Origin: Rufibacter roseus
GTDB lineage: Bacteria > Bacteroidota > Bacteroidia > Cytophagales > Hymenobacteraceae
DNA: 64,000 nucleotides
Direction: 5' to 3'
Assembly (NCBI RefSeq): GCF_001647285.1
Contig: NZ_LRML01000004.1
Span: 248,001-312,000 of the forward strand
The translations under genes and the position numbers were made by a program. This document shows positions 5,736 through 50,647 of the stretch, piece by piece. The notes beneath the pieces are model-generated. The model had not been told where the DNA came from. It searched no databases and saw only the letters and a program-made list of their open reading frames with translations. Position 1 is the stretch's first letter, and each line of letters begins with the position of its first letter.

Positions 5736-6194
5736 ATGAAAACCGCAGAAATCCATACCGCTAAGGGCGTAATGAAAGTAGAATTCTACGAGCAAGATGC
5801 CCCTAAAACTGTTGAAAACTTCACTAAACTGGCCAAAGAAGGCTTCTACGATGGCCTTTCTTTTCACCGTGTTCTTCCTGACTTTGTGATTCAGGGAGGT
5901 TGCCCTAATTCCCGTGAGGGTTCTAAAGGAATGCCGGGCACCGGCGGACCAGGCTACAAAATTGATTGCGAATTGACTGGCGGAAACCAATACCACGACC
6001 GTGGTGTGTTGTCTATGGCACATGCCGGACGTAACACCGGCGGTTCGCAGTTCTTTATCTGCCACAGCCGCAACAACACTGCTCATTTAGACCGCAACCA
6101 CACTTGCTTCGGTAAAGTGGTAGAAGGTCTTGATGTGATTGATGATATCCGCCAAGGCGACCGCATTGAGAAAATTGTGGTAAACGAGGCTTAA
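5736..6194 (+). CDS. Peptidyl-prolyl cis-trans isomerase, cyclophilin type
   Basis: Catalyses cis-trans isomerisation of proline peptide bonds. The 152-residue product is a single cyclophilin domain without signal peptide, so it is likely cytoplasmic. Family marks are FHRVLPDFVIQGG, with the catalytic arginine, then GVLSMAHAGRNTGGSQFFI and LDRNHTCFGKVVEGLDV. The start at 5736 is chosen because the family begins with MKTAEIHTAKG; the frame is open back to 5532 but crosses the promoter box and a palindrome unit. It is followed immediately by the first heptamer-repeat locus. Confidence 0.93.
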   Translation: MKTAEIHTAKGVMKVEFYEQDAPKTVENFTKLAKEGFYDGLSFHRVLPDFVIQGGCPNSREGSKGMPGTGGPGYKIDCELTGGNQYHDRGVLSMAHAGRNTGGSQFFICHSRNNTAHLDRNHTCFGKVVEGLDVIDDIRQGDRIEKIVVNEA

Positions 6195-6300
6195 TAATGA
6201 GTAATGAACAATGATTAATGAGTAATGATCAATTTGGAGAGAAGACCAAACATTAATCATTACTCATTGTTCATTATTCATTGGTCATTAATCATTTACT
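6195..6300. repeat. Inverted heptamer arrays, locus 1 (unit GANNAAT)
   Basis: Left arm 6195-6236 is a tandem run of 7-mers TAATGAG, TAATGAA, CAATGAT, TAATGAG, TAATGAT. Right arm 6252-6300 is the inverted run ATTAATC, ATTACTC, ATTGTTC, ATTATTC, ATTGGTC, ATTAATC. Both arms read as GANNAAT on one strand and the phase never slips. The arms fill the convergent gap between the stop codons of the cyclophilin and ZIP-like genes; only about 15 bases lie between them. Confidence 0.85.
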
Positions 6301-7033
6301 AAAGTAGAAGAAGCAGCACTGCATATAAACCAGTACCCACTAAAAAAGCAGAGAAACGGCTTTTCCGCTCTTCGGGTAGCTCTTCTTTGAGTACGTTAAG
6401 CACCACCCCTCCTGCCAAAAATGCTAACAGTAAAGCTGTAGCCGCCTCTGAAATCTCCATCGCCAGCCCAATTCCCCAACCTATAGATAGTGCTAAGGCC
6501 AGAATCCATCGGCCTACATGCTGGTAACGCTTTTTATGATGCTCGCGCAATCCAAAATCGTTGACCAGGAAGTGTAGGGCCATGGCAACAAAGTAAAACA
6601 ATACCTCTTCTACGTTCTGTTCTTCGCGCTTGTGCAGAAGATAACCTACCAGTGCATTGTACACCGCAAAAGAGCCTATGTGTATCCAGAAAACAGAGGG
6701 CGGGGTATCATCTGAAGTTCCCTTGCCGCCATCTCTTGATTTGATGGCCAAGCGCTCCATTCCATAGAAAATCACCAGCCCCACCAAAGCCATCAGGTAC
6801 ATGTGGTGTTTCAGAAAAGATAACCCTCGGCTCTCGGCAGCCTCTTGCAGGTGCTCCTGCCCCTCCTGAAGCTCCGGAAACAAATGCAAGAACACGTAGG
6901 CCACTGACACCCCTCCAGCTCCAGAAAGCCACAAACTGCGCGGCACACCCTCCAGAAACTTTAATTTATGCCCAAACAGGTGCACGATCATCAGCCCAAG
7001 TAGCGGCAATAGGGTCAGCAGGAATTTTTCCAT
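6299..7033 (-). CDS. ZIP-like integral membrane protein
   Basis: The 244-residue product is almost entirely hydrophobic, with about seven predicted membrane segments. Histidine-bearing segments MIVHLFGHKL and FLHLFPELQ near the start, and the late FLAGGVVLNVLKEELPEE, resemble metal-binding helices of the ZIP zinc/iron transporter family. The match is loose, so transport and metal choice are inference. The ATG at 7033 (MEKFLLTLLPLLG) starts at the first membrane helix; a 16-residue upstream extension is unlikely. It is convergent with the cyclophilin gene and downstream of the AAA ATPase gene, separated from it by palindrome unit 4. Confidence 0.65.
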   Translation of the reverse strand: MEKFLLTLLPLLGLMIVHLFGHKLKFLEGVPRSLWLSGAGGVSVAYVFLHLFPELQEGQEHLQEAAESRGLSFLKHHMYLMALVGLVIFYGMERLAIKSRDGGKGTSDDTPPSVFWIHIGSFAVYNALVGYLLHKREEQNVEEVLFYFVAMALHFLVNDFGLREHHKKRYQHVGRWILALALSIGWGIGLAMEISEAATALLLAFLAGGVVLNVLKEELPEERKSRFSAFLVGTGLYAVLLLLL

Positions 7034-10156: not shown

Positions 10157-10171
10157 GTTACTTTTATTTTT

Positions 10172-10320
10172 GACGCAAGACACAAGACGTAAGACTCAAG
10201 ATTCTCTTTTGGAGGAGAAGGTTTTCTATGCCGATGGAATATCTATAGCTAGAAAACCCCTTATTTGAAATAGAAGGATTTTGTCTTTTGTCTTACGTCT
10301 TGAGTCTTACATCTTATGTC
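10172..10320. repeat. Inverted heptamer arrays, locus 2 (unit GACNNAA)
   Basis: Left arm 10172-10199 is GACGCAA, GACACAA, GACGTAA, GACTCAA. Right arm 10279-10320 is TTTTGTC twice, TTACGTC, TTGAGTC, TTACATC, TTATGTC, which is GACNNAA on the other strand. The enclosed segment holds a 9-bp dyad GGTTTTCTA/TAGAAAACC (10220-10258) shaped like an eroded 36-nt unit but one base longer. It lies in the gap between the divergent VWA and DUF427 genes, in a position that could affect both promoters. Confidence 0.8.
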
Positions 10321-10445
10321 TCTTTCTTAACAACGAAAAGAAGAATATGTTCTTACGCAAGTAAACCTTCTAATGGTAAAACAGTACCTTAAAATTAAAG
10401 GAATACCATACTTATATAATCAACATCCTATTTCATAAACTAATT

Positions 10446-28095: not shown

Positions 28096-28096
28096 T

Positions 28097-28291
28097 TTAA
28101 TTGTTGATTGCTTATTGTTGATTGTTATTCCTTTCCAAGTAGGTTTCAATCATAAGAGTTAGCAGCATGTCTTTGACAACTTCCGTTTTTGGCCTCTTTT
28201 TACAAAATTTACCCAAGAACGGAAGTTGTCAAAATAATTATTCAGCAATTAACGATCAAAAAACAATCAACAATTAACAATCAACAATTCT
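28097..28291. repeat. Inverted heptamer arrays, locus 3 (unit CAATNAA)
   Basis: Left arm 28097-28131 is TTAATTG, TTGATTG, CTTATTG, TTGATTG, TTATTCC. Right arm 28246-28291 is CAATTAA, CGATCAA, a 4-base break, then CAATCAA, CAATTAA, CAATCAA, CAATTCT. Palindrome unit 13 lies between the arms, giving nested symmetry. The arms run from the dtd stop to the start of the MazG-like gene. Confidence 0.8.
28185..28220. repeat. 36-nt palindrome unit 13
   Basis: Starts GTTTTTGGCCTCTTTT and ends TTTACCCAAGAAC. The surrounding arm TTTGACAACTTCC (28172) with GGAAGTTGTCAAA (ending 28233) makes a long dyad with one mismatch in 19 positions. The unit is enclosed by heptamer locus 3. Confidence 0.75.
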
Positions 28292-28295
28292 AAAA

Positions 28296-29605: not shown

Positions 29606-29611
29606 TTTAAG

Positions 29612-29771
29612 GAGTTCTGAGTCTTGAGTTCTGAGTCTTGAGTCATTTAAAATTAAGCGTTTTGGGGCTGTTTTCTTGAAAACTGCACCAAAACGCCACC
29701 AAGTGTTCTAAGTCAAAAGTCGTGCAAATTGAATTATCTGACTCAGGACTCTTGACTCATGACTCAGAACT
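29612..29771. repeat. Inverted heptamer arrays, locus 4 (unit GAGTCNT)
   Basis: Left arm 29612-29646 is GAGTTCT, GAGTCTT, GAGTTCT, GAGTCTT, GAGTCAT. Right arm 29737-29771 is TCTGACT, CAGGACT, CTTGACT, CATGACT, CAGAACT, the same motif inverted. Palindrome unit 15 lies inside. The left arm begins 7 bases before the comB ATG (complement) and the right arm ends at the gcvT stop. Confidence 0.85.
29659..29694. repeat. 36-nt palindrome unit 15
   Basis: Left arm GTTTTGGGGCTGTTTT, right arm AAAACTGCACCAAAAC. It is nested within heptamer locus 4, 3' of gcvT. Confidence 0.85.
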
Positions 29772-29773
29772 AC

Positions 29774-30868
29774 CTAAAGGGTTGGTTTATAAAAGGGCAG
29801 CTTAACTACCAGTGCTTTCAGTTGCTTGTTCCGGACTTTGATATACAGCTCTGTGCCGGGGGCAGCAAATTCTTTTTTCACGTAGCCCAGGCCTACACCT
29901 TTACCTAAACTAGGAGACATAGTGCCGGAGGTAACTTCCCCAATTTGCTCGCCTTGGGCATCTACAATTTCATAATGGCTACGCGGTATACCTTGCTCCT
30001 GCATTTCAAAACCTACAAGCTTACGAGAGACGCCTTGCTCTTTTTGGGCTTTCAGGTTCTCGGCGTTGGTGAAATCTTTGCTGAACTTGGTCACCCAGCC
30101 TAAACCTGCCTCCAAAGGAGAGGTGGTATCTGTGATATCGTTCCCGTAGAGGCAATAGCCCATTTCCAGCCGCAGCGTATCACGGGCACCTAAGCCAATG
30201 GGCTTTATGCCAAACGGGGCACCGGCTTCCATGATTTTTTCGAACACCTCTTTGGCGTTTTCATTCGGCACATAGATCTCAAACCCTCCAGAACCGGTAT
30301 AACCCGTTGCCGAAATAATTACATTTGGCACTCCGGCAAACTCGCCTTTGTCAAAGGTATAATACACCATGTTGGCTAAGTCAACCTGCGTGAGTGACTG
30401 TAAGGCCTCTACCGCCTTTGGCCCCTGCACGGCAAAAAGAGAAGTCTCATCTGAAATATTCTGCAGCTCCGCGCCATTGGAATTGAACTGGCTTATCCAA
30501 TTCCAGTCTTTTTCAATGTTAGAGGCGTTTACCACCAGCATGTACTCATTTTCTGACAGGCAGTACACCAGCAGATCGTCAACAATACCACCTTCATGGT
30601 TAGGCAGAGTAGAATACTGAATTTTTCCTGGTGTTAGCTTTGAGGCATCATTAGAAGTTACCCGCTGAATTAAATCAAGCGCTTGCGGCCCTGACACCAG
30701 AAACTCGCCCATGTGCGACACATCAAAAATACCCACTGCCTTACGCACCGTGTGGTGTTCATCAAGGTCAGATGAGTACCGTACCGGCATGTTATAACCA
30801 GCAAAAGGCACCATTTTGGCACCTAAGGCCTCATGCACATCGTTCAGCGCTATTTTCTTTAATTCCAT
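29774..30868 (-). CDS. gcvT: Aminomethyltransferase (glycine cleavage system T protein)
   Basis: Transfers the aminomethyl carbon from the lipoyl H protein to tetrahydrofolate. The 364-residue product has the family start [44 protein letters not shown], and [14 protein letters not shown]. The Asp near residue 95 in IVDDLLVY is the conserved catalytic residue region. The start at 30868 is chosen because the 35 extra residues upstream cross the promoter box at 30904. The other glycine cleavage genes are not adjacent, as is common in this phylum. Confidence 0.95.
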
Positions 30869-42552: not shown

Positions 42553-42601
42553 CTTATTGTTCTCATTAAATAACGAACAACGAATAACTATCAACAGCAA
42601 C

Positions 42602-49110: not shown

Positions 49111-49232
49111 GGAGAGTGGTTTTTCAATTTGGTAGACACTGGAAAGCTATTGTAGTTCTTTAGGTTTATTACCAAAAAACTGAAAAGGAAAAGACCAGCA
49201 CCTCCAGCCTCTCTTCAACCAAATACCTAAAC

Positions 49233-49260
49233 ACGAATAACGAGCAACGAACAACTAACC
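49233..49260. repeat. Single heptamer array (unit ACGANNA)
   Basis: ACGAATA, ACGAGCA, ACGAACA, ACTAACC in phase, ending at the M28 peptidase stop. It uses the same heptamer as the right arm of locus 5, but I find no facing arm. Confidence 0.6.
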
Positions 49261-49261
49261 C

Positions 49262-50647
49262 CTACAGCCCATATTTATCAATCAAATACACCAAGGCCGC
49301 CATAGAGGCACCGCCTAACTCCAACTCGCGCTTGTTTACTTTGTCAAAGGTGTCGTTGGCGGTGTGGTGGATGTCGAAGTAGCGCTGGGAGTCGGGGCGG
49401 AAGCCAATGAGGGCTACGCGATCGTCTTTCAGTGGACCAATGTCAGCTCCGCCGCCGCCGCGCTCGATGTCGTGCAGGCCATATGGGGCCAGCAGCGGTT
49501 TCCAGGCGAACAGCTTCTGGAAGGTGGGTTCATTGGGTGCGGTGATTCCGAAACCGCGAGGGGTAAAACCTCCGGCATCAGATTCAATGGCAGCAATGTG
49601 TTTCTCGCCACGCTGCTTGGCTACCTCGGCGTATTTGGTGCCGCCGCGAAGGCCGTTTTCTTCGTTCATGAACATGACGGCTCTTATAGTGCGCTTAGGT
49701 TTATAGCCCATTTGCTTGAGCAGGCGCAACACTTCCATAGATTGCACCACTCCGGTACCGTCATCATGGGCACCCTCGCCAATGTCCCAGCTGTCTAAGT
49801 GACCACCCACCACAATAATTTCATCTGGTTTCTCAGAACCCTTTATTTCGCCAATAACGTTATAACTCAGCACATCGGGTAGCCACTGCGGGTTCAGGCG
49901 CATATGGAACCGTAACTTCTCATCCTCTTTTAAAAGACTGCTCAACAGGTCGGCGCCCTTGGTGCTAATGGCCACGGCTGGTATGCGTGGAGCATCATCG
50001 GCGTAGCGCAAGCCGCCGGTGTGCGGGAAATCATCTGTGTTGGAGGCCATGGAACGAACCACCACGCCCACTGCACCCAATTTACCAGCCTCAGATGGTC
50101 CGCTGGAGCGTTGGTCTACTGCGCCGCCGTAGGCCCGGCCGGTAACAATATGCGTTTGATCGAAAGGTCTGTTGAAGAATACAATCTTGCCCTGCACCTT
50201 TTTCTTGCCCAGTTTCTTGAGTTCGTCAATGCCCTGCACCTCTACCACTTCGGCAGTAAGGCCATTGGCCGGAGTAGCTACTGAACCACCTAAGGCCAAT
50301 ACATTTACTTCACGGGCTGGGGTTATTCTTGAGTTGACAATAGCCGCGTATTCTTTGTCGCCGCGCACCCAGTGGGGCACCATTACCTCTTGCAGGTACA
50401 CGCGGTCTAAGCCCATTTTCTCCATTTCCTGCCGGCTCCATTCTACGGCTGCCGCAGCTTGCGGAGAGCCGCTCAGGCGGGCACCAATGTTTTGGGTGAG
50501 GTAACGGAGCTGCTCATAGCTGTTGCCTTGTGTAAGCGCTATGTTGTATAGTTTCCTGATGAAAAGGGAGTCTTGGTTTTGGGCTAGTGCTCCTAATGGT
50601 AAAGCCAAAGCAGCTGCCAGGGCCACATGTTTAAGTTTAGTCAGCAT
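49262..50647 (-). CDS. M28-family metallopeptidase with PA domain
   Basis: A 461-residue exported aminopeptidase or carboxypeptidase-Q-like enzyme. The signal peptide LTKLKHVALAAALALPLGALAQ is followed by a segment with a PA insertion (about 140-260). The zinc site residues appear in VVGGHLDSWDIGEGAHDDGTG (His, Asp), FMNEENGLRGG (catalytic and ligand Glu), ESDAGGF (Asp) and FDIHHTANDTFDKV (His). The start at 50647 is chosen for the signal peptide and lies downstream of the promoter box. The enzyme probably acts in the periplasm or is secreted. Confidence 0.9.
   Translation of the reverse strand: MLTKLKHVALAAALALPLGALAQNQDSLFIRKLYNIALTQGNSYEQLRYLTQNIGARLSGSPQAAAAVEWSRQEMEKMGLDRVYLQEVMVPHWVRGDKEYAAIVNSRITPAREVNVLALGGSVATPANGLTAEVVEVQGIDELKKLGKKKVQGKIVFFNRPFDQTHIVTGRAYGGAVDQRSSGPSEAGKLGAVGVVVRSMASNTDDFPHTGGLRYADDAPRIPAVAISTKGADLLSSLLKEDEKLRFHMRLNPQWLPDVLSYNVIGEIKGSEKPDEIIVVGGHLDSWDIGEGAHDDGTGVVQSMEVLRLLKQMGYKPKRTIRAVMFMNEENGLRGGTKYAEVAKQRGEKHIAAIESDAGGFTPRGFGITAPNEPTFQKLFAWKPLLAPYGLHDIERGGGGADIGPLKDDRVALIGFRPDSQRYFDIHHTANDTFDKVNKRELELGGASMAALVYLIDKYGL

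Follow-up and report, generated by a model that had tools for sequence, protein, structure and literature searches.

Intergenic tandem heptamers are known from cyanobacteria as the STRR of Calothrix and Nostoc (cited in PMC4692102). Their motifs are C-rich or G-rich (heptamers containing C4 or G4), and no such motif was found among the Rufibacter arrays reported here. Intergenic heptamers were also described by Rehm et al. 2015 (PMC4692102), with GGGAATC as the repeat of Xanthomonas and GGGGA(C/T)T as that of Nostoc. In Xanthomonas five of the seven positions are conserved, most arrays contain four units, and 70-75 convergent pairs are present per genome; the repeats lie next to the closest ORF on the 5' side, irrespective of its orientation, with their strand outward, and few are found between divergent genes. 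The same authors link the four units to quadruplex formation (PMC4692102). Finally, TAACTGA direct repeats were reported in Beggiatoaceae, Cyanobacteria and a few Bacteroidetes, before start codons and in one orientation, two cases, located close to an upstream ORF or downstream of a stop codon, being reversed (MacGregor 2015, PMC4679880). These reversed cases fit the polarity rule found below for Rufibacter, but the TAACTGA repeats are a single motif, mostly start-side and direct, for which neither facing pairs, many families nor a stop-side rule was described. No description of the many-family, facing, edge-bound form in Bacteroidota was found in the literature searched, subscription journals being mostly outside the search.

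The Rufibacter arrays share with the Xanthomonas and Nostoc repeats a unit of 7 nt in which about five positions are fixed and two are free, a period specifically of 7, a majority of four-unit arrays, facing inverted pairs, and the placement and polarity with respect to the closest ORF. As in these genera, they tend to be commoner between co-directional than between divergent genes, and the genes carrying them differ from one species to another. Unlike them, they are AT-rich, devoid of G-tracts and divided into many families per genome, neighbouring units avoid identity, and families swap at orthologous sites, where they can even turn to period 8. As they have no G-tracts capable of quadruplex formation, we consider that they share the anatomy of the Xanthomonas and Nostoc repeats, and do not file them as members.

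Facing arrays at locus 1 and elsewhere in the window

The window, that is the whole stretch of 64,000 nucleotides of Rufibacter roseus DNA that was analysed, contains the following features around locus 1:

5736-6194, + strand: gene for a cyclophilin-type peptidyl-prolyl isomerase, left neighbour (Pfam PF00160, E 4e-43)
6199-6233, + strand: left arm of locus 1, five exact GANNAAT units (GAGTAAT GAACAAT GATTAAT GAGTAAT GATCAAT)
6234-6251, strandless: core or loop of 18 nt between both arms
6252-6293, - strand: right arm of locus 1, six exact GANNAAT units
6299-7033, - strand: gene for a ZIP-family transporter, right neighbour (Pfam PF02535, E 2e-10)

A previous sequence-only reading of this gap had proposed five GANNAAT heptamers on the left and about seven on the right, facing each other without phase slips from the cyclophilin stop codon to that of the ZIP-like gene. 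The five left units are all exact, for a chance expectation of zero: locus 1 is the only site of the window with the four-unit GANNAAT pattern, whose mean number in 100 dinucleotide-preserving shuffles was 0.00. On the right, six units are exact, and the seventh (6294-6300), which overlaps the stop codon of the ZIP-family gene, is degenerate. The general layout was borne out, with zero phase slips inside either arm, a left array placed directly 3' of the cyclophilin TAA (6192-6194), and both gene assignments confirmed by Pfam. Among named cyclophilins, the R. psychrotolerans protein is the closest (97%). It had also been stated that the gap contains neither a hairpin terminator nor a palindrome. 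A T-tailed intrinsic (Rho-independent) terminator, sought as a hairpin followed by a T-tract, was indeed not found in the 6195-6300 gap, but a small inner inverted repeat, TTTGG/CCAAA (6233-6237 / 6246-6250), is present and closes the predicted stem of locus 1. No match to Rfam families was obtained anywhere in the window.

A period scan of the window revealed, besides locus 1, three facing pairs and two single arrays, made of other heptamers:

10171-10205, + strand: left array of locus 2, facing the array at 10274
10274-10321, - strand: right arm of locus 2, AAGACNY heptamers
28096-28129, + strand: left arm of locus 3, ATTGYTN heptamers, beginning at the stop codon of the upstream gene
28251-28294, - strand: right arm of locus 3, ATTGYTN heptamers, stopping 1-2 nt short of the downstream start codon region
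29612-29647, + strand: left arm of locus 4, GAGTYNT heptamers, located upstream of a - strand gene whose start codon is 6 nt away
29737-29774, - strand: right arm of locus 4, GAGTYNT heptamers, at the stop codon of the upstream gene
42568-42596, - strand: single array of the TCGTTNN family, with a stop codon 5 nt away
49227-49266, - strand: single array of the TCGTTNN family, at a stop codon

A palindrome, CGTTTT-GGCCTGTTTTC-GAAAACAGGCC-AAAACG, also recurs between genes, at 29650-29720 and 28170-28235 of the window and in hundreds of places in the genus. It is often central to facing arrays, with at most 393 candidates in one genome (G012), and is probably a terminator type of the genus.

As RNA, locus 1 is predicted to form a single long hairpin (-39.5 kcal/mol, z -7.9), and long hairpins are likewise predicted at locus 3 (z -9.7) and locus 4 (z -8.2). 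The arms might then be selected to pair in RNA, so that a gap-spanning transcript from either side would form a long hairpin with bulges, based at the coding edges, where it would protect the 3' end, stop read-through or screen the next start codon. We regard this explanation, which is in line with the predicted folds, the lack of an intrinsic terminator at locus 1 and the common family of the arms of one gap, as serious though rather unlikely, for the reasons given below.

Rules of the arrays in 1.25 Mb of the genome

Tandem arrays were searched for in 1.25 Mb of this genome, about a quarter of it, a minority of the stretches being picked for carrying array hits. Genes were called with a simple coding-potential caller, edge distances being uncertain by a few nt, chiefly at predicted starts, and arrays were assigned to families by k-mer similarity. 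Non-coding arrays numbered 75 at period 7 and 0 to 4 at each of periods 5, 6 and 8-13, and none was present in a 50 kb E. coli control. With a threshold slightly lower than in this period scan but still strict, 98 arrays were obtained in 73 of 836 intergenic regions of the 1.25 Mb. Read outward from the gene, their motifs are AATGANY (the family in which the locus 1 arrays are counted), AAGACNY, GAGTYNT, ATTGYTN, TCGTTNN, AATTARA and rarer ones. Among these is a TAACTGA-related family (outward TCAGTTA, for instance at C1:398467), found in the right orientation at one start edge; locus 1 belongs to AATGANY instead. The STRR heptamers invoked in the sequence-only reading proved a good lead.

An arm is about 30 nt long and is made of 4-5 units of a 7-nt, sometimes 8-nt, motif, in which some five positions are fixed and two are free. 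AATGANY runs of 2, 3, 4, 5 and 6 units were found 5, 3, 14, 5 and 1 times, respectively (peak at 4, 14 of 28), and GAGTYNN runs of 2, 3, 4 and 5 units 8, 1, 6 and 11 times (peak at 5), which means that 4-5 units is the true mode and not a detection floor. Could such arrays be G-quadruplex elements, as proposed for the Xanthomonas and Nostoc heptamers? Unit length, four-unit mode, facing pairs, position and polarity all match those reported by Rehm et al. 2015. Yet four GGG (or CCC) tracts are present in none of the 98 arrays, and in 91 of them runs of G or C do not exceed 1 or 2; no array could form a quadruplex, this explanation is refuted by the sequences, and its probability is practically nil.

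Polymerase slippage on 7-nt units is another simple way to obtain tandem repeats. Arms mirrored by hairpin template switching would account for matched arms within a gap, neither dispersal nor function being involved. Among the long simple repeats of bacteria, heptamers are in excess (Mrazek 2007, as cited in PMC4679880), and long perfect arrays exist in other Bacteroidota. In Rufibacter, though, adjacent identical units are avoided (14 of 344, versus 33.5 expected when unit order was shuffled within arrays), the length mode of 4-5 shows no geometric decay, and polarity and unit order are common to different loci. Slippage in this form is therefore quite improbable, and pure slippage was rejected on the avoidance of identical neighbours and the length mode. 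Identical neighbours were likewise scarce in two relatives (7 versus 14 expected); the avoidance is absent in other Bacteroidota, where the long perfect arrays occur. A phase-variable simple sequence repeat was also discarded, as the runs of identical units that characterise it were not observed (same 14/344 versus 33.5).

Position and polarity follow rules as well. Of the arrays, 67% are no more than 10 nt away from a coding edge, versus 12% for random placement; behind stop codons they begin immediately, whereas before start codons a distance of several nt is usual. When each array is read in the direction leading away from its gene, polarity is identical in 67 of 67 edge arrays (44 at stop edges, 23 at start edges). 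Locus 1 had been suggested to be possibly the functional 3' structure; a specific role at 3' ends is not supported, since the same arrays are found with the same polarity just upstream of start codons. A general composition rule was considered and rejected: ordinary start edges share the G/C skew of the arrays (G-poor leaders), and the rule fails at stop edges, since ordinary stop edges have no skew and array stop edges do. The stop-side polarity is for this reason not a general property of gaps.

A fixed core with free positions, a fixed number of units and a strict polarity are features that a multi-site target of a DNA- or RNA-binding protein would have, for instance an oligomer sitting on a fixed number of five-base sites with a pitch of 7 nt and marking gene borders. 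Invariant columns amounted to 4.05 per array, versus 3.45 expected for evenly spread mismatches, and protein binding or structure was suggested for similar heptamers (MacGregor 2015, PMC4679880; Rehm 2015, PMC4692102). We nevertheless find this explanation, in both its general and its oligomer form, unlikely. The same position is taken by at least 8 motif families, even of period 8, which swap at orthologous sites, and one protein is not expected to read them all; moreover, starts and stops carry opposite sequences in the sense RNA.

Gaps holding exactly two arrays numbered 25 in the 1.25 Mb, of which 19 were of the same family and 6 were hybrids. Facing arrays, which had been considered unusual, are common in this genome, and Xanthomonas genomes have been published with 70-75 pairs each (PMC4692102). 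Families are shared across gaps: facing edge arrays of the same gap are alike in 81% of 16 pairs, versus 13% for unrelated pairs. At least half of the array-bearing gaps have one detectable array alone. Among 43 lone arrays a hidden inverted partner was detected for 10 (about 2 expected), and a hidden direct partner for 1. Unit order is shared as well, pairs of different loci having exact 24-mers within arrays in common 19 times, compared to a mean of 3.7 (maximum 12) when units were reordered within arrays 200 times.

The two-armed gaps also allowed the RNA pairing explanation to be weighed. In the gcvT gap (locus 4), the arms of one species match each other slightly better than arms taken across species (24.3 versus 22.5, permutation p 0.026), and both arms changed together in genome G006, as expected from pairing. 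In the mazG gap, no excess was found (13.4 versus 13.5). Within a family, arms pair no better with their own partner than with the arms of other loci, and sense-strand G-U mismatches between arms were not in excess over A-C ones (35 versus 48, 30 tandem two-armed gaps). The hybrid gaps (6 of 25) cannot pair, and most larger gaps contain a hairpin terminator of their own. Divergent gaps, in which no single transcript runs across both arms, showed no significant depletion (14/207 versus 97/941, pooled p 0.15; p 0.075 for this genome alone). Judged from these comparisons, no sign of selection on RNA pairing is seen in most two-armed gaps, and the earlier proposal of a functional 3' structure loses ground accordingly. 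Even though a hairpin fits the terminator-less locus 1, we rank RNA pairing below the dispersal of elements discussed below, because the pairing looks unselected.

Turnover of families between species

It had been anticipated that, if the arrays were without significance, other genomes would exhibit random AT-rich sequence with no conserved phase. This was refuted, as the same phase, position and polarity are seen again in further species of Rufibacter and in other Bacteroidota. What changes is the motif. In the gap 3' of the cyclophilin gene, AATGANY arrays are found here, ATTGYTN arms lie between stop codon and terminator in six relatives, and a plain terminator without arrays is present in others. 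At locus 2 (gene 10156), some species have the arms together with the core, and in several sisters these are jointly reduced or absent. In the mazG gap, one arm is swapped for period-8 or GAGTYNT arrays with retained polarity, and the other arm stays. One gap has AAGACNY arms in G007 and an 8-nt motif in both arms in G013, for a median protein identity of 91% between the two genomes. Families are therefore replaced at the same site, sometimes on both arms at once.

The gcvT gap differs from these, with GAGTYNT arms kept in nearly all 16 Rufibacter genomes; in G006, it is both arms and core that differ together. Between gcvT and the next gene (window 29606-29737) lies a long, near-perfect core hairpin, TTGGCGTTT...AAACGCCAA, kept in almost all of the 16 genomes with many paired changes. 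It may be a regulatory or terminator structure.

Period-8 arrays, e.g. AATGTGCT and ATTTGGAG, stand in for heptamer arms with the same facing layout and polarity (G007:C1:466589 and its G013 counterpart; L137:9097-9188; mazG gap of G010, G011, G013 and G014). Beyond the genus, facing pairs were found in Hymenobacter (L087, and L137 at period 8), in a Flammeovirgaceae MAG (L133) and in a Bacteroidales MAG (L148). The four-unit GAGTYNT pattern was detected in 35 of 296 Bacteroidota genomes and 20 of 140 genera, a scan whose control, the pattern read backward, is itself near the same motif and hence uninformative. Two Hymenobacter stretches (L085:9310-9417 and L140:14617-14699) have nearly perfect AGAGCTT arrays of more than 10 units at stop codons, and contrast in length and perfection with the short imperfect arrays of Rufibacter.

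Dispersed inverted-repeat elements as the preferred explanation

We propose that facing pairs are the two arms of short dispersed inverted-repeat DNA elements, which are copied from one locus to another and tolerated along the borders of genes. This is our preferred reading, with a probability of roughly 0.4. Copying would spread the elements among loci, and sometimes across a gap from one arm to the other. They would persist only where they are harmless, directly 3' of stop codons and, ahead of start codons, just beyond the ribosome-binding zone, so that the edge position would reflect tolerated insertion sites. Single and hybrid arrays would be remnants after loss or replacement of one arm, and the long RNA hairpin of a read-through transcript would be mainly a by-product of the inverted arms. 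That ready-made arms are copied, instead of arising by slippage independently at each site, is suggested by the same polarity, the shared unit order and the coordinated replacement; an independent origin would predict random polarity, and the 67 of 67 arrays alike speak for copying.

Several observations go against dispersal. The arm family of the gcvT gap is kept in nearly all 16 species, which suggests some function. A strictly two-armed unit predicts neither the frequent single arrays nor the one-arm replacement of the mazG gap, and the sharing of families between loci could come in part from selection for the same motif.

As for the agent of dispersal, the arrays are comparable to REP/RAYT palindromes and small MITEs, such as BrickBuilt of Porphyromonas gingivalis with its 23-nt units (PMC4596501), in being short dispersed intergenic inverted repeats. 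They have the inverted arms of a MITE; they showed no target-site duplication, donor or link to a transposase, and no empty site was found among relatives that are too diverged for clean ones. RAYT-type transposases are encoded in 15 of 16 Rufibacter genomes. Mobilisation by RAYT was rejected, as the genes examined adjoin palindromes of their own and not heptamer arrays, one array-like stretch being about 350 bp from one RAYT gene.

The RAYT-like genes encode Y1 transposases of about 182-184 aa and are flanked by gene-specific palindromes such as GGAAGTnACTTCC, GGGGATTnnnAATCCCC and GAGTCTTCAGACTC (sites G000:C33:395730-396275 and G013:C1:1739211-1739762, and stretches L247, L249, L250, L251, L254, L255 and L256). 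Another dispersed repeat, non-coding and about 500-560 bp long, is present in copies 75-85% identical, with several palindromes and often GACTC heptamers at its end (G000:C23:222974-223657; C1:279149-279685; C23:182684-183247, - strand; C35:49400-49981, - strand; C12:76193-76709; C33:323611-324159; and others).

A bolder proposal is that one sequence-independent, architecture-keeping mechanism is responsible, across several phyla, for polar heptamer arms of fixed size at the borders of genes, Rufibacter running dozens of AT-rich motifs that are swapped between species while size, place and polarity are kept. We hold it to be improbable in both parts; if true, this mechanism would be, for example, a dispersal or templated-synthesis system of a new class.

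Whatever builds the arrays, they cannot form quadruplexes in Rufibacter, and the quadruplex explanation is therefore not general. In the only detailed account of such repeats, the length of four units is bound to quadruplex formation; here that length recurs, with the same pairing, position and polarity, in arrays unable to form quadruplexes, which separates the architecture from this proposed function. The STRR, TAACTGA and GGGAATC reports thereby become one testable class. Motifs change fast at fixed sites, and Rufibacter and its relatives are suited to catching the process under way; the arrays also alter the surroundings of many stop and start codons.
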